NCBI RefSeq assembly: GCF_900091615.1
Contig: NZ_FMIA01000002.1
Location: 6,245,001 to 6,309,000 of the forward strand
Direction: 5' to 3'
Origin: Micromonospora yangpuensis
Lineage (GTDB): Bacteria; Actinomycetota; Actinomycetes; Mycobacteriales; Micromonosporaceae
DNA: 64,000 nt
Positions within the stretch are counted from its first letter, which is position 1; each line of letters begins with the position of its first letter. The position numbers and the translations under genes were made by a program. Under the pieces are notes generated by a model. That model made no database searches. It was not told where the DNA came from and saw only the letters and a list, made by a program, of their open reading frames with translations. Below are positions 2,660-49,044 of the stretch, piece after piece.

Positions 2660-4083
2660 CCGCCGCACCGGCGGCGAGCCGGACCGTACCGCCGTCGGGC
2701 GTGCCCAGCGCCCGGCAGCTGCGGTCCCGGCTGCGTCGGGCCCGTCGCCGGCACCATCCGCCGTCCCTGGGCGACCTGCTCACCGACATCTACATGGCGG
2801 TGCTCTTCACCGCGATGTACGGCTGGGCGTTCGTCAGCAACGTCCGGGAGTACCTGCACTCCCCGTCGGCCGACCCGGCCGATCCGGCGGAGCGGTACTG
2901 GCTGGCCGGGGCCGCGTTGCTGGCCGTGGCCGGGCTCGGTTGGCAGGGGCTGCGGGCGCTGGGGCCGGTGCTGGTCACCCCGGCGACCCAGGCCTGGGCG
3001 GTGAGCGCCCCGGTCGACCGGCGGGCCTGGTTGTTGCCCCGGGCCGGGTTGCTGATCGGGCTGGCCGCCGGTGCCGGGGCACTGCTCGGCGCCGCGCTGG
3101 GTGCGGTCGGCACCGCCCTGGTCGACCGCGCCGACCTGGGGCTGGCGGCGCTGGCCGGTGCGGCGTGCGGTGCGGCGGGGGTCGGGTTGAGCATCGTCGC
3201 CCAGGGCAGCCTGCCCGGTCGCCGTTGGCCACGGTTGCTCGGTACGGGGGCGACGGTCGCGGGTGCGCTCGGCGCGGTCACCGTGGTCGTCGCGCACTTC
3301 ACCGGTCTCGGGTTGGTCCGGCCGTCCGTACCGGTGGCCGGGTTGGTGGTCGTGGTGGCGCTGCCGCTGGCGGTGCTGACCGGCGCACTGGCGCTGCGGG
3401 CGCTGCCCCGGGTGGACCGGGCGTCGCTGACCACCGGGGCGCAGTTCGCCAACGCCGCCGCCACCGCGGCGGTGCTGTTGGATCCGTCCCTGCTCTTCGG
3501 GCTGGTGGAGAGCCGCCGGTGGCGCGGGGTGGGCCGGGTCCGCAGCCGCCGGTTCCTGGCCGGGCGTCGCTGGTGGGTGCTGTTGCAGGCCGAGGCACGC
3601 CGGTTGCGTCGGCATCCGAGTGCCCCCACGGCGTGGGTGGCCCTGGTGCTGCTGCAGTACGCGGTGGCCGTGGCGGTGCCGGTGGCGGCCGGTACGGCCC
3701 AGGTGGTCGGGGCGTTCCTGGCCGCGGGCCGGCTCGCCGGTGGGCTGCGGGCGGTGAGCCGTTCGCCGGGTCTACGGCGGGTGTTGGGCGGTGACGACAC
3801 CGCCGTCCGGCTGGTGCACCTGGTCTGGCCGGCGGTCGGGGCGGCGCTCTGGTGGGTGGTCACCCTGCCGGTCGGTGGGGCGCAGCCGGGCTGGCTGACG
3901 GTGGTGCTGGTGCTCGGGGTGGTGGCTGGCGCGTACCGGGCCGCCACCAAGCCACCCATGTCGTACGACACGGCGATGGTGGACACCCCGTTCGGGATGA
4001 TCCCGGTCGGTCTGCTGAGTCAGCTGCTGCGGGGCTGGGACGTGGTGGCCGTGGTGGTCGTCGCGCGCCTGCTGCTCACCTGA
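2656..4083 (+). CDS. DUF6297-like membrane protein, probable ABC permease
   Basis: A 475-residue polytopic protein with roughly 10 hydrophobic segments, a basic N-terminal tail (SRLRRARRRHHPPSLGDLL) and a conserved-looking YMAVLFTAMYGWAFVSN segment after it. Central basic loops (RRFLAGRRWWVLLQAEARRL) separate two membrane halves. It resembles the DUF6297 family found beside single ABC ATPases in Micromonosporaceae. The GTG at 2656 overlaps the ATPase stop as GTGA, indicating translational coupling. Substrate unknown. Confidence 0.7.
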   Translation: MTAAPAASRTVPPSGVPSARQLRSRLRRARRRHHPPSLGDLLTDIYMAVLFTAMYGWAFVSNVREYLHSPSADPADPAERYWLAGAALLAVAGLGWQGLRALGPVLVTPATQAWAVSAPVDRRAWLLPRAGLLIGLAAGAGALLGAALGAVGTALVDRADLGLAALAGAACGAAGVGLSIVAQGSLPGRRWPRLLGTGATVAGALGAVTVVVAHFTGLGLVRPSVPVAGLVVVVALPLAVLTGALALRALPRVDRASLTTGAQFANAAATAAVLLDPSLLFGLVESRRWRGVGRVRSRRFLAGRRWWVLLQAEARRLRRHPSAPTAWVALVLLQYAVAVAVPVAAGTAQVVGAFLAAGRLAGGLRAVSRSPGLRRVLGGDDTAVRLVHLVWPAVGAALWWVVTLPVGGAQPGWLTVVLVLGVVAGAYRAATKPPMSYDTAMVDTPFGMIPVGLLSQLLRGWDVVAVVVVARLLLT

Positions 4084-4130
4084 CCCGCCCCTGAACTGCG
4101 CCAACAGGCCTCTATATAGGCATTGGCCGA

Positions 4131-4159
4131 TTGACAAAGTTTGACTCCCCAACTTAACC
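4131..4159 (+). promoter_or_regulatory. Candidate promoter of the first GH5 cellulase
   Basis: TTGACA (4131-4136) with a 17-base gap to TTAACC (4154-4159) sits in the only AT-rich stretch between the genes, about 35 bases before the start codon. The -10 match is weak. I see no CebR-type or LacI-type palindrome here, unlike in front of the paralogue at 57 kb. Confidence 0.4.
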
Positions 4160-4192
4160 TGCCGGTCCGGTAGTCCACAGGCGAGGAGCGTC

Positions 4193-6304
4193 ATGGCCGG
4201 CACAACAGGCACGTCGATGCGAGCACGATGGCGACTCGGTCTGATCACCGGCACCCTGACGGTGCTGATGGTCAGCCTCGGAATGACCTTCGCGGTGAGC
4301 GCCCAGGCAGCGGCCGGCTGCCGGGTGGCGTACACCGCCAACCAGTGGCCCGGTGGCTTCACCGCCAACGTGGCCGTGACCAACCTCGGCGATCCGGTCA
4401 ACGGCTGGCGGCTGACCTGGACGTTCCCCTCCGGACAGCAGGTGACCTCGGCGTGGAACGCCACCGTCACCGCCGCCGGCGCCAACGTCACCGCCACCAG
4501 CCTGAGCTACAACGCCAGCCTGGCCACCAACGGCAGCACGTCGTTCGGCTTCAACGGCTCCTGGTCGGGCAGCAACACCGCGCCCACCACGTTCGCCCTC
4601 AACGGGGTCACCTGCACCGGCAACGTCGGCCCCACCACCCCGCCGCCGACCACCCCGCCGGTCACGCCACCGCCGACGACCCCGCCGCCGGCCGGTGACG
4701 CGATGTCCTACGTGGCGGCGATGCAACCGGGCTGGAACCTCGGCAACACCTTCGACGCGGTCGGCGACGACGAGACGGCCTGGGGCAACCCCCGGGTCAC
4801 CGAGGCACAGCTGGACAACATCCGCGCCCAGGGCTTCAAGAGCATCCGGATCCCGGTCACCTGGAGCAACCACCACGGGGCCGGCCCGGACTACACCATC
4901 GACCCGGTCTGGCTGAACCGGATCAAGGAGGTGGTCGGCTGGGCGCTGGACGACGGCTTCTACGTGATGATCAACCTGCACCACGACTCGTGGCAGTGGA
5001 TCAACGCGATGCCTACCGACCGGACCACCGTGCTCAACCGGTACAACGCGTTGTGGACCCAGATCGCCGCCGCGTTCCAGGACGCCTCACCGAAGCTGCA
5101 CTTCGAGAGCGTCAACGAACCGCAGTTCGCCAACAGCTCCGGCGACGCGCAGAACGCCCAGCTGCTGCACGAGCTGAACGTCAACTTCCACCGGATCGTG
5201 CGCGCCTCCGGCGGCAACAACGCGACCCGGATGCTGGTCCTGCCGACCCTGCACACCTCGTCCGAGCAGCCCCGCATCGACGAGCTGACCGCCACCTTCA
5301 ACCAGCTCAACGACCGCAACCTGATCGCCACGGTGCACTTCTACGGGTACTGGCCGTTCAGCGTGAACGTCGCCGGGGGCACCCGCTTCGACGCCACCAC
5401 CCAGAAGGATCTCACCGACGCCTTCGACCGGGTGCACAACGCCTTCGTCGCCAAGGGCATCCCGGTGGTCATCGGCGAGTACGGTCTGCTCGGCTTCGAC
5501 CGGCACACCGGCACCATCCAGCAGGGCGAGAAGCTCAAGTTCTTCGAGTTCCTCGGCCACTACGCGAGGTCCAAGCGGCTGACCACCCAGCTCTGGGACA
5601 ACGGGCAGCACTTCGACCGGACCACCTTCCAGTGGCGCGACCCGGAGCTGTGGGGGCAGATCAGGTCGAGCTGGACCACCCGCTCCGGCACCGCCTCGTC
5701 CGACCAGGTGTACGTGCCGCGTACCGGGTCGATCAGCGCCAGGTCGCTGACCCTGAACCTGAACGGCACCACCTTCACCGGGCTGCGCCAGGGCAACACC
5801 GAGCTGGTCCGGGGCACCGACTACACGGTCTCCGGCGACCAGCTCACCCTCACCGCGGGCGCGTTGACCCGACTGGTCGGCAACCGGGCGTACGGGGTGC
5901 GGGCCACCCTGTCGGCCCGGTTCTCCGCCGGGGTGCCGTGGCGGATCGACGTGATCTCGTACGACCCGCCGACGGTGTCCAACGCCACCGGGGCGACCAG
6001 CGCCTTCACCGTCCCGACCCAGTTCCGGGGTGACCAGCTCGCCACCATGGAGGCCAGGTACGCCGACGGCAGCAACGCCGGCCCGCACAACTGGACGTCG
6101 TACAAGGAGTTCGACGTCGCCTTCTCACCCGACTACGCGGCCAACACCATCGAGCTGACCCCGGAGTTCTTCGCCGAGGTCAACGACGGTGCGCGGGTGA
6201 CCCTCACCTTCCACTTCTGGAGCGGTGCGACGGTCACCTACCACGTCACCAGGTCGGGTGACACCGTCACCGGCACCACCGCCAGCGCCGCCCGGGTGGG
6301 CTGA
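4193..6304 (+). CDS. Secreted cellulase: CBM2-GH5-X2-CBM46
   Basis: A 703-residue secreted glycoside hydrolase, likely endo-beta-1,4-glucanase or xyloglucanase. A Sec signal ends near AVSAQAAAG (residues 35-42). It is followed by a CBM2 cellulose-binding module (about 42-140, Cys at both ends, Trp-rich), a Pro/Thr linker (about 145-165) and a GH5 domain (about 170-500) with acid/base Glu309 in ESVNEPQF and nucleophile Glu429 in VIGEYG. Then come an X2-type Ig-like module (GLRQGNTELVRGTDYTVSG) and a CBM46-like end (FRGDQLATMEARYADGSN). This order resembles GH5 subfamily 4 enzymes such as Bacillus halodurans Cel5B. A closely similar gene is at 57090-59189. The ATG at 4193 has a gaggag site. Confidence 0.9.
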   Translation: MAGTTGTSMRARWRLGLITGTLTVLMVSLGMTFAVSAQAAAGCRVAYTANQWPGGFTANVAVTNLGDPVNGWRLTWTFPSGQQVTSAWNATVTAAGANVTATSLSYNASLATNGSTSFGFNGSWSGSNTAPTTFALNGVTCTGNVGPTTPPPTTPPVTPPPTTPPPAGDAMSYVAAMQPGWNLGNTFDAVGDDETAWGNPRVTEAQLDNIRAQGFKSIRIPVTWSNHHGAGPDYTIDPVWLNRIKEVVGWALDDGFYVMINLHHDSWQWINAMPTDRTTVLNRYNALWTQIAAAFQDASPKLHFESVNEPQFANSSGDAQNAQLLHELNVNFHRIVRASGGNNATRMLVLPTLHTSSEQPRIDELTATFNQLNDRNLIATVHFYGYWPFSVNVAGGTRFDATTQKDLTDAFDRVHNAFVAKGIPVVIGEYGLLGFDRHTGTIQQGEKLKFFEFLGHYARSKRLTTQLWDNGQHFDRTTFQWRDPELWGQIRSSWTTRSGTASSDQVYVPRTGSISARSLTLNLNGTTFTGLRQGNTELVRGTDYTVSGDQLTLTAGALTRLVGNRAYGVRATLSARFSAGVPWRIDVISYDPPTVSNATGATSAFTVPTQFRGDQLATMEARYADGSNAGPHNWTSYKEFDVAFSPDYAANTIELTPEFFAEVNDGARVTLTFHFWSGATVTYHVTRSGDTVTGTTASAARVG

Positions 6305-6320
6305 CGCCCGAGCCCGCCCA

Positions 6321-6357
6321 CGACGGGCCGTGACCGCCAGCCGGTCACGGCCCGTCG
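6321..6357. terminator. Bidirectional hairpin terminator
   Basis: Perfect 16-bp arms (6321-6336 and 6342-6357) around a 5-base loop lie between the convergent cellulase and MAB_1171c-like genes. There is no U-tract, as is usual in actinomycetes. Confidence 0.75.
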
Positions 6358-6382
6358 CCCGGTCGAGGCGCGACCGGGGCGG

Positions 6383-7561
6383 CTACGACCGCTCGGCGTG
6401 GTCTGCGGCAGTGGCCGCTTCGGCGGCGAGGTGCCGGACCCGGTCGACCTCCGCCGAGTCGGTGAACTGCCGGGCCACCCGGGCCAGCCAGGCGCTCTCC
6501 GAGGCCACCGAGGCGTCCACGTCCTGGAAGGGGTGCTCGGCCCGGTAGTCCCGCCCGTGGGCGTGACCGACCAGGGCGGCGGCGATCACCGCCGCCTCCA
6601 CGGTGGCCGGGTCAGCCGCCGGGCCGACCCAGCGGGGCACGTCCGGATGCGCGTACGACCGCAGCGTCAGCTGGGCGTCGCGGACCTCGATCACCCGCCG
6701 GTAGAGCGCGAACTCCGCACCGGGCAGCGGCCAGCCGCCGCTGGTGTTGAGCGTGATCTGCGGCAGCGCGGCCCGCAGCGCCCGCCAGAGCGGGTCGATC
6801 CGGCGCAGCCGACGCACCGCCCGCAGCCAGCGCAGTGGCGCGGTGATCCGGTCGCCCCAGGCGGTCAGGGTCGCCCCGATCAGCCAGAGCAGCATGCAGA
6901 TCGAACCCAGGGTGCTGCCGATCGGCAACGTGGTGGCCAGGGACCGGCCGGTGACCAGGGTGACCACCGGCCGGACCCCGGACCAGGCCGCCCAGACGAT
7001 GCCGAGCGCGGCCCCGGTGACCACCAGCGCCAGTCCGGTCCGCAGCACCGGTTCGGTCACGTGCCGTAGGTAGCCGCCCACGCTGGTGATGAAGGTGACC
7101 AGGCAGAGCGCGATGTAGCTGAAGAAGACGACGAGGTAGCCGACCACCAGCGGGTCCCGGGAGTACGCGTTGACGAAATTCAACGTGAAGGCGGTGTCCG
7201 CGCCGGCCAGCAGCGCCCCCATCAGCAGGACCGTGCCGACCAGCAGGACCGTGTGCCGGCGCAGCCACCGACGGGTGCCGGCCGGGCGGGCGATGCTCTG
7301 GCCGAGCGCGCCGAGGAAGTACGCGGCGAGCATCTCCAGGCCGTTGCCGAGCAGCCGACCGAGGTTCGGTACCGGCTCGACGTGGCTGATCGCGACCAGC
7401 ACCGGGTGTGCCATCACGGCCAACCCGAGACCGATGCAGAGGAAGAACGCGGAGAGGTACCGGGTGCCGGCGGCGCGCCGCCGGCCGCGTACCGGCACGA
7501 GTTTGTAGCCGGCGACCCCGACGGCCAGCGCCAGGGCGGTGAAGTTCAGCCAGGTCAACAC
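6383..7561 (-). CDS. MAB_1171c-family membrane protein
   Basis: A 392-residue protein whose first half carries about seven membrane helices (LNFTALALAVGVAGYKLVPV onward) and whose C-terminal half is soluble and Trp/Arg-rich. It matches the MAB_1171c putative transporter family, which actinobacteria typically encode beside an ImmA/IrrE peptidase and an XRE regulator; exactly those two genes lie upstream here on the same strand. Start is GTG 7561, 15 bases after the peptidase stop. Role unknown; the trio faces the linaridin genes and may regulate or protect against the product. Confidence 0.75.
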   Translation of the reverse strand: MLTWLNFTALALAVGVAGYKLVPVRGRRRAAGTRYLSAFFLCIGLGLAVMAHPVLVAISHVEPVPNLGRLLGNGLEMLAAYFLGALGQSIARPAGTRRWLRRHTVLLVGTVLLMGALLAGADTAFTLNFVNAYSRDPLVVGYLVVFFSYIALCLVTFITSVGGYLRHVTEPVLRTGLALVVTGAALGIVWAAWSGVRPVVTLVTGRSLATTLPIGSTLGSICMLLWLIGATLTAWGDRITAPLRWLRAVRRLRRIDPLWRALRAALPQITLNTSGGWPLPGAEFALYRRVIEVRDAQLTLRSYAHPDVPRWVGPAADPATVEAAVIAAALVGHAHGRDYRAEHPFQDVDASVASESAWLARVARQFTDSAEVDRVRHLAAEAATAADHAERS

Positions 7562-37760: not shown

Positions 37761-37762
37761 CC

Positions 37763-37906
37763 GCCCCGCTCCGCTCCGCGCCCCGCTCCGCCCCGCTCCG
37801 CTCCGCCCCGCCCCGCTCCGCCCCGCCCCGCCCCGCTCCGCTCCGCTCCGCCCCGCTCCGCTCCGCTCCGCCCCGCTCCGCTCCGCTCCGCCCCGCTCCG
37901 CTCCGC
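37763..37906. repeat. Five-base simple repeat (cgctc / cgccc)
   Basis: About 28 units of ccgct or ccgcc in mixed order over 144 bases, just downstream of the hemolysin pair and ending about 35 bases before the inversion repeat. All six frames are open by composition only. Confidence 0.85.
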
Positions 37907-40779: not shown

Positions 40780-40809
40780 TTGACACGCCCTGTCGTCGCT
40801 GGCCAGACT
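40780..40809 (+). promoter_or_regulatory. Promoter of the B12 uptake operon
   Basis: TTGACA (40780-40785) with an 18-base spacer to CAGACT (40804-40809); transcription would start just before the cobalamin riboswitch. The 120 bases upstream, back to the exporter stop, hold nothing else I can identify. Confidence 0.5.
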
Positions 40810-40827
40810 GACGGCACAAGTCCACAA

Positions 40828-40935
40828 GCGCGTACGTGCGGGGGAAGTCCGGTCTGAGTCCGGCGCTGGCCCGCAACGGTAGGCCGTCGAGGTGATCCAC
40901 TTTCGACGGCGAGCCCGAATACCCGCCGTACGCGT
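40828..40935 (+). ncRNA. Cobalamin riboswitch
   Basis: Closing stem P1 pairs 40829-40836 with 40927-40934. Between them are the conserved blocks gggggaagtccggtctgagt, then ccggcgctggcccgcaacgg and gagcccgaatacccgcc, as in actinobacterial AdoCbl riboswitches. Downstream stems (gacggtcgtc / gacgaccgcc, 41000s) and a gccggaaagg site before ATG 41043 suggest translational control. Genes downstream would be off when cobalamin is abundant. Confidence 0.85.
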
Positions 40936-41042
40936 GAATTCGTTCCCCCACCCGTCGTGGCCCACGGGTCGGAGTCCCGGTCCTCCGCGTCACGACGGTC
41001 GTCCGGGTTTCTGACGACCGCCGGGCCGGAAAGGCGCTTCCG

Positions 41043-42083
41043 ATGGTCGTCCGCCTGAGCCGGCACCACCTGCTCGTCCTCCTCTGCGGTCTGCTCGCCG
41101 CCCTCACCCTCACCACCCCCGCGCTCGCCGCGCCCGCGCCCGCCGGCCCGGTGCCGACGGGCCCGACCCGCGCCGAGGCCGCCGCCGGTTGGCTGGCCCG
41201 TCAACTCGTCGACGGCGAACGCCTCGAAGTGGTCTTCGACGGCGTCGCCTACCCCGACCAGGGGCTCACCCTCGACGCGGTCCTCGCCTTCGCCGCCGCC
41301 GGCGTCGCCGACGACTTCGGTGCGTCGGCACTGGCCTGGGTCACCCGGCCGGACATCCGCGACGGTTACGTCGGCGACGGCAGCACCGAGGCGTACGCCG
41401 GCGCCACCGCGAAGCTCGCCCTCGCCGTCGCGGTACGCGGCGCGGATCCGACCGATGTGGGCGGGGTCGACCTGACCGCCCGGCTGCGTTCGCTGCAGTC
41501 GACCGACGGCCGGTTCACCGACCGGTCCGCGTTCGGCGACTACAGCAACGCCTTCAGCCAGTCCCTGGCGATCCTCGCCCTGCACCGCACCGCGCCGGGG
41601 GTGCCTCCGGCGGCGGCGTCCTGGCTGGCCGGTACCCGGTGTGCCGACGGCGGTTATCCGCTGCTGCCCGCCCAGCCGGTCTGTACCTCCGACGTGGACG
41701 CCACCGCGCTCGCGGTGCAGGCGCTGCGGGCCGCCGGCCGCCCGGCCGACGCCGCCGCCGGGCTGCGCTGGCTGGTCTCCGTGCAGGGCACCGACGGCGG
41801 ATTCGGCAACGCCAACAGCACCGGTCTCGCCGCGCAGGCGCTACGCGCCGGCGGCCGGCCGCTGGCCTGGGCTCGGGCCCGCACCTTCCTCACCGGACTC
41901 CAGGTGGGCTGCGCCGGTGCGCCGGCCGACCGGGGCGCGGTCGACTTCGACGGCGGCACCTTCGATCCGCAGACCGCCGTCCGCGCGACCGCACAGGCCG
42001 TCCTCGGCCTGACCGGCACCGGGTACGCCCAGCTCTCGGCCACTGGGGCGACCGCCGGGGCACCGGTGACCTCCTGCCCCTGA
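41043..42083 (+). CDS. Secreted prenyltransferase-fold protein, transcobalamin alpha-like
   Basis: A 346-residue exported protein. Signal peptide ends near ALAAPAP (residue 30). The rest is a repeat alpha/alpha-barrel with characteristic QSTDGRF, DGGYPLL, QGTDGGFGNANSTGLAAQAL segments, as in prenyltransferase/squalene-oxidase repeats. The alpha domain of animal intrinsic factor and transcobalamin has this same fold. With a cobalamin riboswitch in front and DUF4430 genes behind, B12 capture at the cell surface is the best guess. It has no anchor, so it is secreted or associates with a partner. Confidence 0.75.
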   Translation: MVVRLSRHHLLVLLCGLLAALTLTTPALAAPAPAGPVPTGPTRAEAAAGWLARQLVDGERLEVVFDGVAYPDQGLTLDAVLAFAAAGVADDFGASALAWVTRPDIRDGYVGDGSTEAYAGATAKLALAVAVRGADPTDVGGVDLTARLRSLQSTDGRFTDRSAFGDYSNAFSQSLAILALHRTAPGVPPAAASWLAGTRCADGGYPLLPAQPVCTSDVDATALAVQALRAAGRPADAAAGLRWLVSVQGTDGGFGNANSTGLAAQALRAGGRPLAWARARTFLTGLQVGCAGAPADRGAVDFDGGTFDPQTAVRATAQAVLGLTGTGYAQLSATGATAGAPVTSCP

Positions 42084-42213
42084 GCGGCCCCGGTGCGCCA
42101 CCCGTCCGGTCCCCGCTCGTCCCAGCTCAGCTCGCCGTGCCCCAGCTCGCCTCACCCAACTCCCCTCACCTCAGCTCGTCTCACCTCGGCTCGTCCGACC
42201 ACAGGAGGACGTC

Positions 42214-42702
42214 ATGTTCCGTCACCGTTGCGCCATCCGCCGCCGGCTCGCCGGGCTGCTGGCCGCCGCCGTCGCCGCCGTCGCACTGACCGCGGTCGAA
42301 CCCGCACCCCGGGCGGCGCACGCCGCCGCCTGCACCGGCACCACCGGAGTGACCGTGGTCGTCGACTTCGCCGCCCTCGGCGGGGGCGTCCAGGTCGCCT
42401 GCGCCCTCGGCGATCCGGCCACCGGGGTGGCCGCCCTGCAGGGCGCCGGCTTCACCGTCACCGGCACCTCGCGCTGGGGGCTGGCCTTCGTCTGCCGGAT
42501 CAACGGCAAGCCCACCGCCGCGACCGACCCGTGCGTCAACACCCCGCCCGCCACGGCGTACTGGTCGTACTGGCACGCCTCCGGCAGCGGCGCGGCCTGG
42601 TCGTACAGCACCTCCGGCGCGTCCAGCTACAACCCCGCGCCGGGCAGCGTCGAGGGCTGGTCCTTCGGCGCGGGCGCCGCACCGAGCATCACCGCTCCCT
42701 GA
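42214..42702 (+). CDS. Secreted DUF4430 protein, transcobalamin beta-like
   Basis: A 162-residue exported protein. Signal peptide ends near AAHAAAC (residue 38), then a DUF4430 domain (TGVTVVVDFAALGGG, CRINGKP, TAYWSYWHAS, GSVEGWSF) with paired Cys. DUF4430 is the fold of the C-terminal beta domain of transcobalamin/intrinsic factor. ATG 42214 has an aggaggac site. The 130 bases before it contain only ctcacctcagctcg-type low-complexity repeats. Confidence 0.8.
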   Translation: MFRHRCAIRRRLAGLLAAAVAAVALTAVEPAPRAAHAAACTGTTGVTVVVDFAALGGGVQVACALGDPATGVAALQGAGFTVTGTSRWGLAFVCRINGKPTAATDPCVNTPPATAYWSYWHASGSGAAWSYSTSGASSYNPAPGSVEGWSFGAGAAPSITAP

Positions 42703-42758
42703 CCTGCCGCCCCGGGGTGGACCGGGCGTCGACCGACCACACTGCGAAAGGCACCCTC

Positions 42759-44372
42759 ATGCCACTGTCCGCGCCACGGCCACCCGGGCCCCGGCCACCG
42801 TCCCGACCGCCCGTACCCCGGCCACCCGTCTCCCCGGCACCCGCGTCCCAACGGCTCGTGTCCCGACGGCTCATCTCTCGGCGGCTCGTGTCCCGGCGGC
42901 ACATTTCTCGGCGGTTCGGTGCCGGTCTCGCGGCCAGCACGGCGGTGACCCTGGCCGCGCTCAGCGCCGTACCCCTGAGCGGGGTGGCCGCACCGGCGGC
43001 GGCCGATACCGCCGCCGGGCGCGCCGCCGCGACCTGGCTGGCCGGGGAGTTCGACGACGGGGCGCTGCCCGGACCGTTCGGCGGCCCGGACTGGGGCCTG
43101 ACCATCGACGGGATCCTCGCGCTCTCCGCGACCGGGGTCGCCGCACCGACCCGGCAGGCGGCAACCGCGCAGGTCGCGGCGCACGTACGGGCCTACAACA
43201 GCTACGACGACTGGGGTATCCCCGGCTTCACCGACGGTGGGGCGACGGCCAAACTGCTGTACGCCGCCGCAGCCGCCGGAGCCGATCCCACCGCATTCGG
43301 CGGCTTCGACCTGCGGGCCGAGACGCTGTCCCTGATCGCCGGGGCGGACGCCGGGCACCAGCGGGGGCGGATCACCAGCCGGACCACCGCCGACAGTGGA
43401 CCGGACGCCAGCAACACCTTCGACCAGTCCTTCGCCGTGCTGGGCCTGGCCCGCAGTGGTGACCTGCCACCGGCCACCGTCGACTTCCTGCTCCGGCAGC
43501 AGTGCGCGGCGGGCGGGTTCCGGCTCTACCCGGACACCGTGGACGGGCCGTCACCCTCCTGCGACGAGCAGGCCGACGCGCTCCTCGACGTCGACTCGAC
43601 CGCGATGGCCGTCCAGGCGCTGTTGGCCGCCGCCGACGCCGGTGCCGGCGGTGCCGCCGACGCGGCCGGCCGGGCGGCGGACTGGCTGGTCGCCCAGCAG
43701 CACCCGGACGGGTCGTTCGGTGGTTCGGGGCCGACCACCGGCGCGAACTCCAACAGCACCGGCCTGGCCGGGCAGGCCCTCGCCGCCGCGGGGCGCGACA
43801 CCGCGGCCACCCGGGCCGCCGATGCGCTGCGCGCGCTGCAACTGACCACGGCGAACGGCGGGGCGGCCGCCGCCGACGCGGGAGCCGTCGCGTACAACAC
43901 CACCGAGTTCACGGCGGGAGTTCAGGCCGGTATCGCCGACACCGGCCGGGACCAGTGGCGTCGGGCCACCGCGCAGGCGCTGCTCGGGCTGGTCCAGGTG
44001 CCGCTCGGCCGGATCGGCCTCGACCCGCCGCCGTCGCCGGAGCCGACCCCGACCGGCACCGTCACCCCGACCTCCTCGCCGACCGCCACGGCCACCCCGA
44101 CCGGCACCGCCCCGCCCACGCCCACCGGGTCGCCGACCCCGGGCACACCGACACCGACCGGTACGGCCCCGGCCAGCCCGACACCGAGCGGCTCGGCCGG
44201 TGCCACACCGCAGACCCCGGCCCCCACCACGCCGGCCGTCGTGCCGGAGCCGACACCGACCGGTGGGCTGCCCAGGACCGGTGCGGCGATCGTCAGCTAC
44301 GTACTGGTCGCGGCCCTGCTGGTCGGGGTGGGCGTACTGCTGCTGGTGCTGACCCGACGGCGGGCGACATGA
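42759..44372 (+). CDS. Prenyltransferase-fold protein with LPXTG anchor, alpha-like
   Basis: A 537-residue protein. An unusual N-terminus of Pro/Arg repeats (RLVSRRLISRRLVSRRHISR) precedes the signal helix (about 48-70). An alpha/alpha-barrel follows (about 75-400; QHPDGSFGGSGPTTGANSNS), then a long Pro/Thr stalk and LPRTG, a hydrophobic helix (VLVAALLVGVGVLLLVL) and RRR: a sortase sorting signal. So this second alpha-like protein is probably wall-linked. The true start may be downstream of the Arg repeat. It overlaps the next gene by 4 bp. Confidence 0.78.
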   Translation: MPLSAPRPPGPRPPSRPPVPRPPVSPAPASQRLVSRRLISRRLVSRRHISRRFGAGLAASTAVTLAALSAVPLSGVAAPAAADTAAGRAAATWLAGEFDDGALPGPFGGPDWGLTIDGILALSATGVAAPTRQAATAQVAAHVRAYNSYDDWGIPGFTDGGATAKLLYAAAAAGADPTAFGGFDLRAETLSLIAGADAGHQRGRITSRTTADSGPDASNTFDQSFAVLGLARSGDLPPATVDFLLRQQCAAGGFRLYPDTVDGPSPSCDEQADALLDVDSTAMAVQALLAAADAGAGGAADAAGRAADWLVAQQHPDGSFGGSGPTTGANSNSTGLAGQALAAAGRDTAATRAADALRALQLTTANGGAAAADAGAVAYNTTEFTAGVQAGIADTGRDQWRRATAQALLGLVQVPLGRIGLDPPPSPEPTPTGTVTPTSSPTATATPTGTAPPTPTGSPTPGTPTPTGTAPASPTPSGSAGATPQTPAPTTPAVVPEPTPTGGLPRTGAAIVSYVLVAALLVGVGVLLLVLTRRRAT

Positions 44373-45331
44373 CGGGGTCCCGGCGGGCCGGGCTGGTCGT
44401 CGTCGGGGTGCTGGCGGGCACGGTGGGCGTGCCGGGGCCGGCCGCGTCGGCGGCCGGCTCCGCCGGGTACTGCCCGGACGCCTCCGGCGTCACCGTCGTG
44501 GTCGACTTCAACGAGCTCGGCGGCGGCACCGTGGTGCGGTGTGCCCCCGGCGCGCAGAGCACCGGCCTGACCGCACTCAAGGACGCCGGTTTCCAGGTCA
44601 CCGGCACCCTGCGCTGGGGTGAGGGGTTCATCTGCCGGATCGAGGGCAAGCCGTCGGCGGCCGCGGAGAAGTGCGTCGACACGCCACCGGCCAGCGCCTA
44701 CTGGTCGTACTGGCACGCGCAGGACGGCGGCAGCTGGGCGTACAGCGACAAGGGGGTGCTCAACCGCAGGCCACCGGCGGGCAGCTTCGAGGGCTGGTCG
44801 TTCTCGCTGAACCGCAGCGGCAACGACGCGCCCCGACCGGACGTGGCACCGAAACGCCCCGCCCCGCCACCGCCCGCACCGCCACCGCCGGGCCCGGTCG
44901 CACCCCCGCCTGGACCGGTCGCGCCTCCGCCGGCCGGCGACGACGGGCCGGTCGCGCCACCACCGCCGGCCGCCGACGGTGGACCGGTCGTACCGCCGGC
45001 CGCCGGCGGCGCGCCGGTCGGTCCGCCACCGGCAGCCGACGGTCGGCCCGCTCCGGCACCGACGGCCGGGACCGCCGGACCCACACCCCCCACCGGTACG
45101 CCGCCGACCGGTGCACCGACGCCGAGCGGGGCGGCACCGACCGCACCGGCCGGTGGTGCCGGTACGTCGGCCGACCCCGCCGGTCAGCCGCCGCTGACGC
45201 CGATCGCCGGACGCCGGGACGGTGGCGGGCTCCCCCTGGGTACGGTGGCCGGCGTCCTGGTGCTGGCCGTACTCGCCGCCGGTGGCCTGGTCGCCGCCCG
45301 ACGACGACGGACCGCCGAGCCGGATGACTGA
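44369..45331 (+). CDS. DUF4430 protein with C-terminal membrane anchor, beta-like
   Basis: A 320-residue protein: signal peptide (to about residue 30), DUF4430 domain (about 33-150: SGVTVVVDFNELGGG, CRIEGKP, SAYWSYWHAQ, GSFEGWSF), a 130-residue Pro-rich stalk, and a membrane helix (GTVAGVLVLAVLAAGGLVAA) with RRRR. This is a tethered counterpart of the free protein at 42214. It overlaps both neighbours. Confidence 0.8.
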   Translation: MTGSRRAGLVVVGVLAGTVGVPGPAASAAGSAGYCPDASGVTVVVDFNELGGGTVVRCAPGAQSTGLTALKDAGFQVTGTLRWGEGFICRIEGKPSAAAEKCVDTPPASAYWSYWHAQDGGSWAYSDKGVLNRRPPAGSFEGWSFSLNRSGNDAPRPDVAPKRPAPPPPAPPPPGPVAPPPGPVAPPPAGDDGPVAPPPPAADGGPVVPPAAGGAPVGPPPAADGRPAPAPTAGTAGPTPPTGTPPTGAPTPSGAAPTAPAGGAGTSADPAGQPPLTPIAGRRDGGGLPLGTVAGVLVLAVLAAGGLVAARRRRTAEPDD

Positions 45332-46502
45332 GCCGTCCCGGCGCTCGGCGCGGCTGCCCCGGGCGCTGCACCCCGGCGCGTGGTGGCTGTGGGCGCTCGG
45401 CCTGGCCACCGCCGCCAGCCACACCACCAGTCCGCTGCCGCTGGGGCTCTTCGTCGCCGTCGCCGCGCTGGTGGTGGTCCGCCGACGCGGGGACGCGCCG
45501 TGGGCGCTGGCCTTCCGGATGTACCTGGTCCTGGGCGCGGTGATCGTGGCGATGCGGGTGGTGTTCCGGATCGTGTTCGGCGGTGGGCAGGGCGAGACCG
45601 TGCTGGTCCGGCTGCCGGAGATCCCGCTGCCCGAGTGGGCCGCCGGCATCCGGCTCCTCGGGCCGGTCGCCGCCGAACAGCTCCTCGGCGGGTTCTACGA
45701 CGGGCTGCGGCTGGCCACCATGCTGGTCTGCCTCGGCGCGGCGAACGCGTTGGCCAACCCGAAGCGGCTGCTCAAGGCCGTACCCGGGGCGCTCTATGCG
45801 GTGGGTACGGCGGTGGTGGTGGCCCTGTCGGTGGCCCCGCAGCTGGTGGAGAGCGTGCTGCGGGTCCGCCGGGCCCGGCGGCTGCGCGGGGCCTCCGGCC
45901 GGGGCGTCCGGGCGTTGCGGGGCATCGCGTTGCCGGTGCTGGCCGACGCGCTGGACCGGTCCCTGGCGCTGGCCGCCGCGATGGACTCCCGGGGGTACGG
46001 CCGCACCGCGGCGGTGCCGGCCGGCCAGCGTACGGTCACCGGCGCGCTGGTGCTCGGCGGTCTGGTCGGGGTCTGCGCCGGTACCTACGGGTTGTTGGAC
46101 GCCACCGGGCCCGGTTACCTGGGCCTGCCGATGCTGCTCGCCGGGCTGGCCACCGCCGTGACCGGGATGGTGCTGGCCGGCCGTCGGGTCCGGCGGGGCC
46201 GCTACCGCCCGGACCGTTGGCGTACCGCGGAGTTGCTGGTGGCCGGCTGCGGTGCGACGGTCGCCGGGCTGACGGTGCTGGCCGGCTCGCTCGACCCGGA
46301 GCTGCTGTATCCGCCGGTCAGCCCGCTCACCTGGCCCGAGCTGACGCCGTTGACGCTGCTCGCGGTAGCGGTCGCGGCGGCACCGGCCTGGCTGGCACCG
46401 CCACCGGTGCTGACCCGGTCGACCCCGCCGCCCGCACCGACCCCGGCCGGTGGCACGAGCCGCCTGCCGGTCCCGTCCGGAGCCCGGGGAGGCCCACGGT
46501 GA
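45324..46502 (+). CDS. ECF transporter T component (EcfT/CbiQ-like)
   Basis: A 392-residue membrane protein with six or more helices and the two coupling motifs with Ala-Arg cores (RRARRLRG and MDSRGYGRT), which contact the ATPases. The C-terminus is Pro-rich. Its ATG lies inside the previous gene (8-bp overlap). Confidence 0.88.
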   Translation: MTEPSRRSARLPRALHPGAWWLWALGLATAASHTTSPLPLGLFVAVAALVVVRRRGDAPWALAFRMYLVLGAVIVAMRVVFRIVFGGGQGETVLVRLPEIPLPEWAAGIRLLGPVAAEQLLGGFYDGLRLATMLVCLGAANALANPKRLLKAVPGALYAVGTAVVVALSVAPQLVESVLRVRRARRLRGASGRGVRALRGIALPVLADALDRSLALAAAMDSRGYGRTAAVPAGQRTVTGALVLGGLVGVCAGTYGLLDATGPGYLGLPMLLAGLATAVTGMVLAGRRVRRGRYRPDRWRTAELLVAGCGATVAGLTVLAGSLDPELLYPPVSPLTWPELTPLTLLAVAVAAAPAWLAPPPVLTRSTPPPAPTPAGGTSRLPVPSGARGGPR

Positions 46503-48178
46503 TCGAGTTCGACCGGGTGACCGTCCGGTACGCCGACAGCGACCAACCGACGCTGCGGAACGTGACGCTCCGCATCGACGAGGGCGAACTCTGCCTGGTC
46601 GTCGGGCGCACCGGCACCGGCAAGTCCACCCTGCTGCGGGCGGTCAACGGGCTGGTGCCGCACTTCACCGGCGGCACCCTGCACGGCACCGTCACGGTGG
46701 ACGGCCGGGACACCCGCCACCATCCGCCGCGTGACCTCGCCGACGTGGTGGGCGTGGTCGGACAGGATCCGCTCGCCGGGTTCGTCACCGACACGGTCGA
46801 GGAGGAACTCGCCTACGGGATGGAACAGCTCGCCCTGCCGGCGACGGTGATGCGCAAACGGGTGGAGGAGACCCTGGACCTGCTCGGCATCGCCGAGCTG
46901 CGGGACCGGCCGCTGCGGACCCTCTCCGGCGGGCAGCAGCAGCGGGTCGCCATCGGCGCGGTGCTCACCGCCCACCCCCGGGTGCTGGTGCTCGACGAGC
47001 CCACCTCCGCGCTGGACCCGACCGCCGCCGAGGACGTTCTGGCCGTGGTGACCCGGCTGGTGCACGACCTCGGGGTGACCGTGGTGCTGGCCGAGCACCG
47101 GCTGGAGCGGGTGGTGCAGTACGCCGACCGGCTGCTCCACCTGCCCGGCGACGGCCGGGTGGTGTCCGGGGACCCGGCCACCGTCCTGGCCGGCGTCGAC
47201 ATCGTGCCGCCGCTGATCGAGCTGGGTCGCCTCGCCGGCTGGACGCCGCTGCCGCTGTCGGTCCGCGACGCCCGCCGCCACGCCACCGACCTGCGCCACC
47301 GACTCACCGCGACCGCTTCGGGGACGGCGGCTCCGGGCGCGGCAGCTTCCGGCGGGACGGTTCCGTCCGGACCGACTCCCGGCGCGGCGGCTCCGCCCGC
47401 CGTGCTGACCGCGCGGAAGATCGTGGTGCGGTATCCGGGCACCGTCGCCGTGGCCGGGGTCGACCTCGACCTGCACCCGGGGCGGATCGTGGCGCTGATG
47501 GGGCGCAACGGCTCCGGCAAGTCCAGCCTGCTCTGGGCGGTGCAGGGCAGCGGCCCCCGGCAGGGCGGCACGGTCACCGTGGTCGGCCCGCAGGGGGCCG
47601 TGGACCCGAAGGCCCTGCCGCCGGGCCGGGCCCGACGACAGGTGGGGCTGGTCCCGCAGACCCCCGGTGACCTGCTGTACCTGGAGACCGTGGACGCCGA
47701 GTGCGGCCAGGCCGACCGGGAGACCGGTACGCCGGCCGGCAGCTGCCGGGCGCTGCTGGACCAGCTCGCCCCCGGGCTGCCCGGCGACCGGCACCCCCGG
47801 GACCTGTCCGAGGGGCAGCGGTTGGCGCTCGCCCTCGCCGTCCAGCTCACCGCCGCCCCACCGGTGGTGCTGCTGGACGAGCCGACCCGGGGCCTGGACT
47901 ACCGCGCCAAACGGCAGTTCGCCGCGATCGTCCGCCGGTTGGCCGCCGACGGGCGGGCGGTGGTGGTCGCCACGCACGACGTGGAACTCGTCGCCTCCCT
48001 CGCCGACCGGGTGGTGGTGCTGGCCGAGGGGGAGATCGTCGCCGACGGCAGCACCACCGAGGTGATGCTCGCCTCGCCGGCCTTCGCCCCGCAGGTGGCC
48101 AAGGTCCTCGCCCCCGCGCCCTGGCTGACCGTGGACCAGGTCACCGCCGCCCTCGGTACGGACGGGTCGCCGTCGTGA
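46499..48178 (+). CDS. ECF transporter fused A-A' ATPase
   Basis: A 559-residue protein made of two ABC ATPase domains. First: Walker A GRTGTGKST, signature LSGGQQQRVAI, Walker B VLVLDEP. Second (from about residue 300): Walker A GRNGSGKSS, degenerate signature LSEGQRLAL, Walker B VVLLDEP. An Ala/Pro/Gly linker separates them. This is the fused EcfA1-A2 arrangement. GTGA overlap upstream and downstream. Confidence 0.9.
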   Translation: MIEFDRVTVRYADSDQPTLRNVTLRIDEGELCLVVGRTGTGKSTLLRAVNGLVPHFTGGTLHGTVTVDGRDTRHHPPRDLADVVGVVGQDPLAGFVTDTVEEELAYGMEQLALPATVMRKRVEETLDLLGIAELRDRPLRTLSGGQQQRVAIGAVLTAHPRVLVLDEPTSALDPTAAEDVLAVVTRLVHDLGVTVVLAEHRLERVVQYADRLLHLPGDGRVVSGDPATVLAGVDIVPPLIELGRLAGWTPLPLSVRDARRHATDLRHRLTATASGTAAPGAAASGGTVPSGPTPGAAAPPAVLTARKIVVRYPGTVAVAGVDLDLHPGRIVALMGRNGSGKSSLLWAVQGSGPRQGGTVTVVGPQGAVDPKALPPGRARRQVGLVPQTPGDLLYLETVDAECGQADRETGTPAGSCRALLDQLAPGLPGDRHPRDLSEGQRLALALAVQLTAAPPVVLLDEPTRGLDYRAKRQFAAIVRRLAADGRAVVVATHDVELVASLADRVVVLAEGEIVADGSTTEVMLASPAFAPQVAKVLAPAPWLTVDQVTAALGTDGSPS

Positions 48179-49044
48179 GCGGGCGGACCGACCGGGCCGG
48201 CACGAACGTGCTGCGGGTCGCGCCGCGCACGGCGGTCGTGCTGCTGCTCGCCTCGGTCGCCGCGCTGGCCACCTTCACCTGGCCGTTCTTCGTCCCCGCC
48301 CAGCCCGAGGGGACGGCCAGGACCGGGGAGGCGCCGCTGGTGTTCCTGGTGGTGCTGCCGGTCCTGGTGGCGTTGGTGTTGGCCGAACTCAGCTCCGGCG
48401 GCATCGACAGCAAGGCGTTGGCGATGCTCGGCGTACTCGCCGCCGTCAACGCCGCGTTGCGCCCGCTCGGTGCCGGTACCGCCGGCATCGAGACGGTCTT
48501 CTTCCTGCTCGTCCTCGCCGGCCGGGTGTTCGGGCCCGGCTTCGGCTTCCTGCTCGGCTCGACGTCGTTGTTCGCCTCCGCGCTGCTCACCGCCGGGGTG
48601 GGGCCGTGGCTGCCGTTCCAGATGCTGGCCGCGTCCTGGATCGGCCTGGGCGCCGGCCTGCTGCCGGCCGGGCTGCGTGGCCGGGCGGAGGTCGCCGTCC
48701 TGGCCGGCTACGGCGTGCTGGCCGCGTACGGCTACGGCCTGCTGATGAACCTGTGGTTCTGGCCGTTCAGCATCGGCGCGGACACCCAGCTCTCCTACGT
48801 GGCGGGTGCCCCGCTGCTGGAGAACCTGCACCGCTTCGCCGTCTTCACCGCGGTCACCTCCACCTTCGGCTGGGACACCGGCCGCGCCGTCACCACCGCT
48901 GTGGCGATCGTCCTGGCCGGCCCGGCGGTGCTCGCCGCGCTGCGCCGGGCCGCCCGCCGGGCCGCCTTCGGCGCACCTGTCACCTTCGCCGACCCCGCCC
49001 ATCCGGGTACGATGTCACCTCTTGGTCCGGACCGTAGGCGCTGA
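48175..49044 (+). CDS. ECF transporter S component, probably cobalamin-specific
   Basis: A 289-residue membrane protein with six helices, including ALAMLGVLAAVNAALRPLG and GFLLGSTSLFASALLTAGVG, the pattern of ECF substrate-binding proteins. The riboswitch at the operon start and the transcobalamin-like genes point to cobalamin (CbrT-like) as substrate. GTGA overlap with the ATPase gene; last gene of the operon. Its 3' end overlaps the convergent gene at 49015 by 30 bases. Confidence 0.8.
   Translation: MSGRTDRAGTNVLRVAPRTAVVLLLASVAALATFTWPFFVPAQPEGTARTGEAPLVFLVVLPVLVALVLAELSSGGIDSKALAMLGVLAAVNAALRPLGAGTAGIETVFFLLVLAGRVFGPGFGFLLGSTSLFASALLTAGVGPWLPFQMLAASWIGLGAGLLPAGLRGRAEVAVLAGYGVLAAYGYGLLMNLWFWPFSIGADTQLSYVAGAPLLENLHRFAVFTAVTSTFGWDTGRAVTTAVAIVLAGPAVLAALRRAARRAAFGAPVTFADPAHPGTMSPLGPDRRR

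Follow-up and report, generated by a model that had tools for sequence, protein, structure and literature searches.

The 64,000-nucleotide stretch of Micromonospora yangpuensis analyzed here (NZ_FMIA01000002.1, positions 6,245,001 to 6,309,000; hereafter the window) carries seven plus-strand genes, at 41043-49044, downstream of one cobalamin riboswitch. We read this operon as a vitamin B12 (cobamide) scavenging system, with a probability of roughly 0.8. Its genes encode two folds of the transcobalamin kind, alpha and beta, each present twice, followed by a full energy-coupling factor (ECF) transporter (Table 1). This arrangement had been claimed in the original prediction, and our gene and Rfam scans bore it out; the start of the locus, placed there at 40828, moves to 40795, where the riboswitch actually begins, 33 bases earlier. 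The extracellular B12 scavenging proposed there is likewise supported, by the predicted folds, the riboswitch, the co-occurrence of the parts, natural alpha-beta fusions and a host without CbiC.

Table 1. Features of the locus, in positions of the window. Export signals were called by eye only.
Feature	Positions	Strand	Description
Cobalamin riboswitch aptamer	40795-40944	+	RF00174, short actinobacterial form; Rfam model and our model R1
A1	41043-42083	+	346 amino acids; alpha/alpha-toroid, putative signal, no C-terminal anchor (soluble alpha half)
B1	42214-42702	+	162 amino acids; transcobalamin-type beta-grasp, putative signal, no anchor (soluble beta half)
A2	42759-44372	+	537 amino acids; alpha-toroid, Pro/Thr-rich linker, LPRTG, C-terminal hydrophobic stretch (anchored alpha half)
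B2	44369-45331	+	320 amino acids; beta domain, Pro-rich linker, C-terminal hydrophobic stretch (anchored beta half)
EcfT	45324-46502	+	CbiQ-type transmembrane component; PF02361
Double EcfA	46499-48178	+	two fused ATP-binding cassette (ABC) ATPase domains; PF00005
EcfS	48175-49044	+	substrate component, proposed B12-specific subunit; PF12822 match, conserved, co-occurs with beta

The beta proteins are predicted to adopt the fold of animal B12 carriers. The AlphaFold2 model of B1 (mean predicted local distance difference test score, pLDDT, 77.5; core blocks mostly 80-95) resembles the beta domain of transcobalamin, haptocorrin and intrinsic factor, a beta-grasp with the extra hairpin after the helix that marks the transcobalamin-like clade of the soluble-ligand-binding beta-grasp (SLBB) superfamily, and structural alignment with these carriers gave 15-19% identity. 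A1 was modeled as an alpha/alpha toroid (pLDDT 93.9). Its nearest neighbors in structure and sequence were squalene-hopene and drimenyl cyclases, followed by GH76 mannanases; transcobalamin appeared among its Foldseek matches at rank 16 (E 9.2e-5) and was not among the 50 matches listed in a further search. Since transcobalamin did not rank first, we do not take the alpha fold alone as a pointer to B12. The animal family model PF01122 scored 15.7 bits on A1, below its cut-off of 25. The nearest named families are SCO2321_fam for alpha (NF053823; A1 111.4 bits, A2 90.3 bits, cut-off 300) and SCO2322_fam for beta (NF040672; B1 30.7 bits, B2 36.1 bits, cut-off 85); the window proteins are related to these families rather than members, and neither name carries a function. 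Most of the 120 listed relatives of beta carry PF28005 as their precomputed Pfam accession; this model was not among the matches of the window proteins in the Pfam copy used.

Comparisons at the level of sequence gave no link to the DUF4430 model or to transcobalamin. In Pfam scans, the DUF4430 model (PF14478) matched neither B1, B2 nor the rest of the host genome, and divergent beta relatives used as bridges reached 11.1 bits at best, against a cut-off of 23.8. The beta profile, aligned by hhalign to a single human transcobalamin fragment, an insensitive template because it is one sequence, yielded values of 0.2% and 0.9%, neither significant; the second alignment, in our reading, keeps the register expected from the fold. 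For these comparisons we used alignments restricted to the core (A5 and A6), since the proline-rich tails had spoiled an earlier profile search. Neither hhalign nor profile searches of the PDB provided a sequence link between beta and transcobalamin. We therefore retain the proposed term “DUF4430-type” for the predicted fold and reject it as a sequence label.

Natural fusions connect the two folds. We assembled a set of 74 loci, comprising the window and 73 distinct loci chosen by their beta domain (from the best 80 of 270 matching stretches), and in eight of them a single open frame encodes both alpha and beta. In locus L060, from Amycolatopsis suaedae, a single chain runs from a putative signal through a toroid and a linker to the beta domain and ends with no anchor; intrinsic factor and transcobalamin have their domains in this same order. 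A cobalamin riboswitch precedes the gene (Rfam, 37.6 bits), and the 20 kb of the locus yielded neither T nor S. A search with this protein, which scored the 7999 candidates sharing the most words, returned 491 relatives. Among the best 120, our models detected both domains in 86, and in all of these the toroid comes before beta and a C-terminal membrane stretch is absent; the remaining 34 show one domain only (28 beta, 6 alpha). Other fusions follow the order beta-toroid (L057, L068) or beta-toroid-toroid (L079). We regard fusions of this kind as good evidence that alpha and beta also act as partners when they are encoded apart.

The riboswitch ties the operon to cobalamin. RF00174 was matched with 41.2 bits (gathering threshold 31.5; E 5.5e-7), which places the element within the family, and it was the sole Rfam family above threshold in the window. 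To survey the other loci we used our own model, R1, built from nine sequences that come from four loci and the window, so that these five are not independent; the 121.8 bits that R1 assigns to the window riboswitch accordingly concern one of its training rows. R1 listed 166 matches, and we tallied those of at least 26 bits; 143 of them fall within the 74 loci, and 112 of the 143 precede an alpha or beta domain. Overall, 71 of the 74 loci have a match on the same strand less than 900 bases 5' of such a domain (median about 222); the others are L048 (16.7 bits) and two short contigs (L082 and L087). Rfam's own model reached its gathering threshold in six of the seven loci tried and lay upstream of alpha or beta on the same strand in five of the seven, with no match in L055 and one on the opposite strand only in L024. 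At least two riboswitch matches precede alpha or beta domains in 37 of the 74 loci, as in L017, where one lies between B1 and A2; the window has one riboswitch for all seven genes, and that second element is missing from the 56 bases there. Two loci (L028, 8238-8580; L032, 8434-8803) have back-to-back divergent cobalamin riboswitches before oppositely oriented soluble and anchored genes. Folding of the window's leader revealed no excess stability (z 0.12), and we therefore make no claim on terminator or ribosome-site control, although we infer that cobalamin switches the operon off through this leader.

Related loci occur in several genera of Actinomycetota. The 73 further loci come from Micromonospora, Salinispora, Dactylosporangium, Streptomyces, Kitasatospora, Saccharothrix, Lentzea, Kribbella, Nocardiopsis and others, and T and S are both present in 63 of the 74. 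Together with the 71 loci that carry the riboswitch, this association of riboswitch, alpha/beta proteins and ECF transporter exceeds chance. In a further 20 regions, often from deep-branching genomes, alpha, beta, T, A and S occur together in 11, ten of which have a riboswitch match; R1 or Rfam detects one in 16 of the 20, and Rfam alone in 6 of the 11 and 3 of the other nine, including one match on the opposite strand. Six of the 20 regions (L110, L111, L115 and L125-L127) yielded no alpha. In L125-L127, a beta protein that looks lipoprotein-like by eye sits beside ECF genes, with no toroid and no cobalamin riboswitch match; it is possibly a beta-only, ECF-coupled binder, whatever its ligand. 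In L125, a single frame of 1006 amino acids (2937-6522) covers T-like, A, A and S parts. Among 296 genomes of the phylum, 50 contain beta and 59 a strong S match, defined as at least 156 bits, a limit chosen after we saw a gap down to 95 bits (any S match: 86 of 296). A strong S occurs in 49 of the 50 beta genomes, within 10 kb of beta in 42 of these 49, and in ten genomes without beta. These genomes are related by descent, and Fisher values overstate the evidence.

Both the T component and the two ABC ATPase domains by which we recognized an ECF transporter are present in the operon. EcfT matched PF02361 with 27.4 bits (cut-off 25), and the double EcfA matched PF00005 in two stretches (1.6e-48) and ECF_ATPase_1 (1.7e-83). 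EcfS scored 30.6 bits on PF12822, 0.1 bit short of the cut-off of 30.7 (E 4e-7), and its profile found no relative in the PDB; S components diverge strongly in sequence. Rodionov et al. (2009) reportedly named actinobacterial CbrTUV systems, and our search of the open-access literature for SCO2321-SCO2325 and cbrTUV returned work on a skin-delivery peptide only. The genes from A2 to EcfS overlap (A2/B2 by 4 bases, B2/EcfT by 8, EcfT/EcfA by 4 and EcfA/EcfS by 4), as in a translationally coupled operon, and gaps of 130 and 56 bases separate A1 from B1 and B1 from A2. Upstream of the locus, at 37761-37906, lies a low-complexity, CCGCT-rich tandem array of a 20-base unit in 7.2 copies.

The host appears to depend on external B12, given that its genome has no CbiC and no CobJ above cut-off and yet contains the B12 domain of MetH and two genes of the methylmalonyl-CoA mutase family. 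The MetH B12-domain match (G000:C2:3698171-3698803, L105) has one in-frame TAG inside. Three cobalamin riboswitches in the genome are above threshold, before this operon, metE and the class I nrdA; the host's riboswitches thus serve B12-independent enzymes and the proposed importer. A sub-threshold match (25 bits; G000:C2:468992-469047, L004) lies near a BtuF-like binding protein of PF01497, perhaps a second, BtuF-type B12 importer. Within the genus, CbiC is absent from 15 of 22 carriers versus 20 of 59 non-carriers (odds ratio 4.2, Fisher p 0.011 with kinship ignored), which we regard as a trend. The carrier tally was 23 of 81 before we left out one genome (G162; E 8e-5, one stop inside). A search with full-length B2 had given 19/61, probably biased by the proline-rich tail, and was superseded by domain-only searches.

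How might the seven proteins work together? At low intracellular cobalamin, the leader riboswitch would permit expression of the operon. A1 and B1 would then be exported and diffuse freely, while A2 and B2 would be exported and remain attached to the cell surface. Within a pair, beta may take cobalamin first and the toroid then close, the separate chains assembling around the ligand. The soluble pair would collect B12 at a distance from the cell, and the anchored pair would keep the bound vitamin close to EcfS, the dedicated subunit that would take it over and import it with the T-A-A motor. We infer export, cobalamin as the ligand, the order of binding and the division of labor between the pairs; the hand-over to S and the retrieval of the soluble pair are guesses. 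Work on the animal proteins offers a precedent. The halves of human transcobalamin, when made separately, are described as co-eluting only with cyanocobalamin (PMC5599065), which also cites the same ligand dependence for intrinsic factor, and the beta half is reported to bind first, with the alpha half closing on it (PMC11107200). Such ligand-dependent assembly suggests that a split pair would be a workable B12 trap.

The same machine could carry another cargo, with the pairs and S preferring cobinamide, other cobamides or the lower base over complete cobalamin. The riboswitch would still fit, as salvage raises cobalamin; moreover, the Lactobacillus B12 ECF transporter is reported to take both cobalamin (Kd 9 nM) and cobinamide (36 nM) (PMC5997447), and haptocorrin to bind cobinamide too (PMC5599065). 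We nevertheless consider such a preference unlikely: the animal toroid and beta domain are described as sandwiching whole cobalamin (PMC1796856), and in Pfam and NCBIfam scans the seven genes matched no corrinoid-remodeling family. Far less probable is a riboswitch-controlled Co2+ transporter with accessory surface proteins. Although EcfT and EcfA belong to the CbiQ/CbiO type, and the CbiMNQO cobalt operon of C. difficile is described as lying under a cobalamin riboswitch (PMC11477304), the S component scores just under the PF12822 cut-off, and the same scans gave it no CbiM match; a genome without CbiC has no evident use of cobalt for corrin synthesis, and beta is predicted to fold as a B12-binding domain does. 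Finally, secreted toroid enzymes of the terpene-cyclase or glycosidase kind, accompanied by a beta protein that binds something unrelated and by an incidental riboswitch, would agree with the cyclase and mannanase neighbors of A1 but are hardly credible given the apparent export signals, the alpha-beta single chains, the riboswitch upstream in nearly all loci and the occurrence of DxDD, the acid motif of class II terpene cyclases, anywhere in just 3 of 111 alpha domains.

Within the B12 scavenging system, the two pairs seem to differ in where they reside. All four alpha and beta proteins had been predicted to be secreted as separate proteins, which agrees with A1 and B1, whose chains end 16 and 9 residues past their domains, whereas A2 and B2 have C-terminal hydrophobic stretches and A2 an LPRTG motif. 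The A2 tail scored 17.7 bits on Pfam Gram_pos_anchor (cut-off 20). The start codon of A2 is uncertain and its N-terminus repeat-rich; 15-base tandem repeats at 42759-42930 encode a proline/arginine-rich stretch there. Counting a protein as anchored when a simple scale marked part of its tail as hydrophobic, we classified the 111 alpha domains into 58 anchored, 39 soluble, 12 in fusions and two unclear, and 130 beta domains into 68, 53, seven and two, respectively. On FastTree trees, in which long branches, including L060, were flagged, the soluble label changes three times for alpha and five times for beta (shuffled means 32 and 41), and the anchored label ten and four times (shuffled 36 and 43). 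The soluble alphas sit together in 37 of 39 cases, and the anchored alphas fall in several groups. The two states thus mostly follow clades, which argues for a lasting division of labor between the pairs. A third mode of anchoring is seen in L122 (5069-7381), where one chain downstream of a cobalamin riboswitch combines toroid, beta and three CWB2 cell-wall-binding stretches.

A tentative extension, which we think may well be wrong, is a two-tier B12 economy, in which the diffusible pair, or a single-chain alpha-beta protein, would be released as a carrier and the anchored pair would recover it and deliver it to S. Equally tentatively, the released carrier might be likened to a siderophore protein for a vitamin, and the single-chain form to a bacterial intrinsic factor in architecture. 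If true, Actinomycetota would have the architecture of intrinsic factor in a split as well as a fused form, in a branch that the DUF4430 model does not detect. B12 exchange shapes microbial communities, and to our knowledge little is known of B12 pickup outside the membrane in Gram-positive bacteria. The locus is compact and testable: the exported domains are small, the riboswitch offers a read-out and the transporter is dedicated to the system. It also suggests functions for the function-less families SCO2321 and SCO2322, and its natural split and fused versions are material for asking how animal B12 carriers arose.

Several known systems resemble the proposed one in part. Surface lipoproteins of the BtuG/BtuH type in Bacteroides likewise capture B12 before its import through the membrane, with other folds and in an outer-membrane context. 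The animal carriers intrinsic factor, transcobalamin and haptocorrin place toroid and beta on one chain, whereas the window uses two chains and their order occurs only in relatives such as L060; they rely on receptors such as CD320 or cubilin, whereas an ECF transporter adjoins the genes here (receptor homologues were not searched for). ECF-CbrT of Lactobacillus delbrueckii is an ECF importer for which cobalamin transport has been shown, the same role being only proposed here; the description in PMC5997447 gives it a motor common to several S components and includes no extracellular binding protein. The profile of the window's S component did not pick up CbrT in the PDB search.

The closest precedent is the bacterial transcobalamin-like SLBB clade of Burroughs, Balaji, Iyer and Aravind (2007; PMC1796856), defined there by structure and insert and not by today's DUF4430 model. 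As described in that paper, beta domains are fused to toroids in either order, are anchored or secreted and sometimes occur as two paralogues; their operons include CbiO and CbiQ, and their hosts usually lack key B12 synthesis enzymes; the authors predict B12 scavenging and a transfer of the architecture to animals. The window shares the beta-grasp with its post-helix hairpin, the toroid partner, apparent signals and an apparent anchor, paralogous pairs, CbiO/CbiQ neighbors and a host that seems unable to make B12. The distribution given in 2007 names low-GC Gram-positives, planctomycetes and some euryarchaea as hosts but no actinobacteria, and the main-text treatment mentions no riboswitch, whereas a cobalamin riboswitch is present here; the chains are also usually split, with one soluble and one anchored pair and a conserved S. 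The 2007 prediction is hence extended to a large phylum, in a form missed by the DUF4430 model. The kind of system is already known from that prediction, and what is added here is an actinobacterial branch beyond DUF4430 detection, with its split chains, soluble and anchored pairing, riboswitch, conserved S and fusions.

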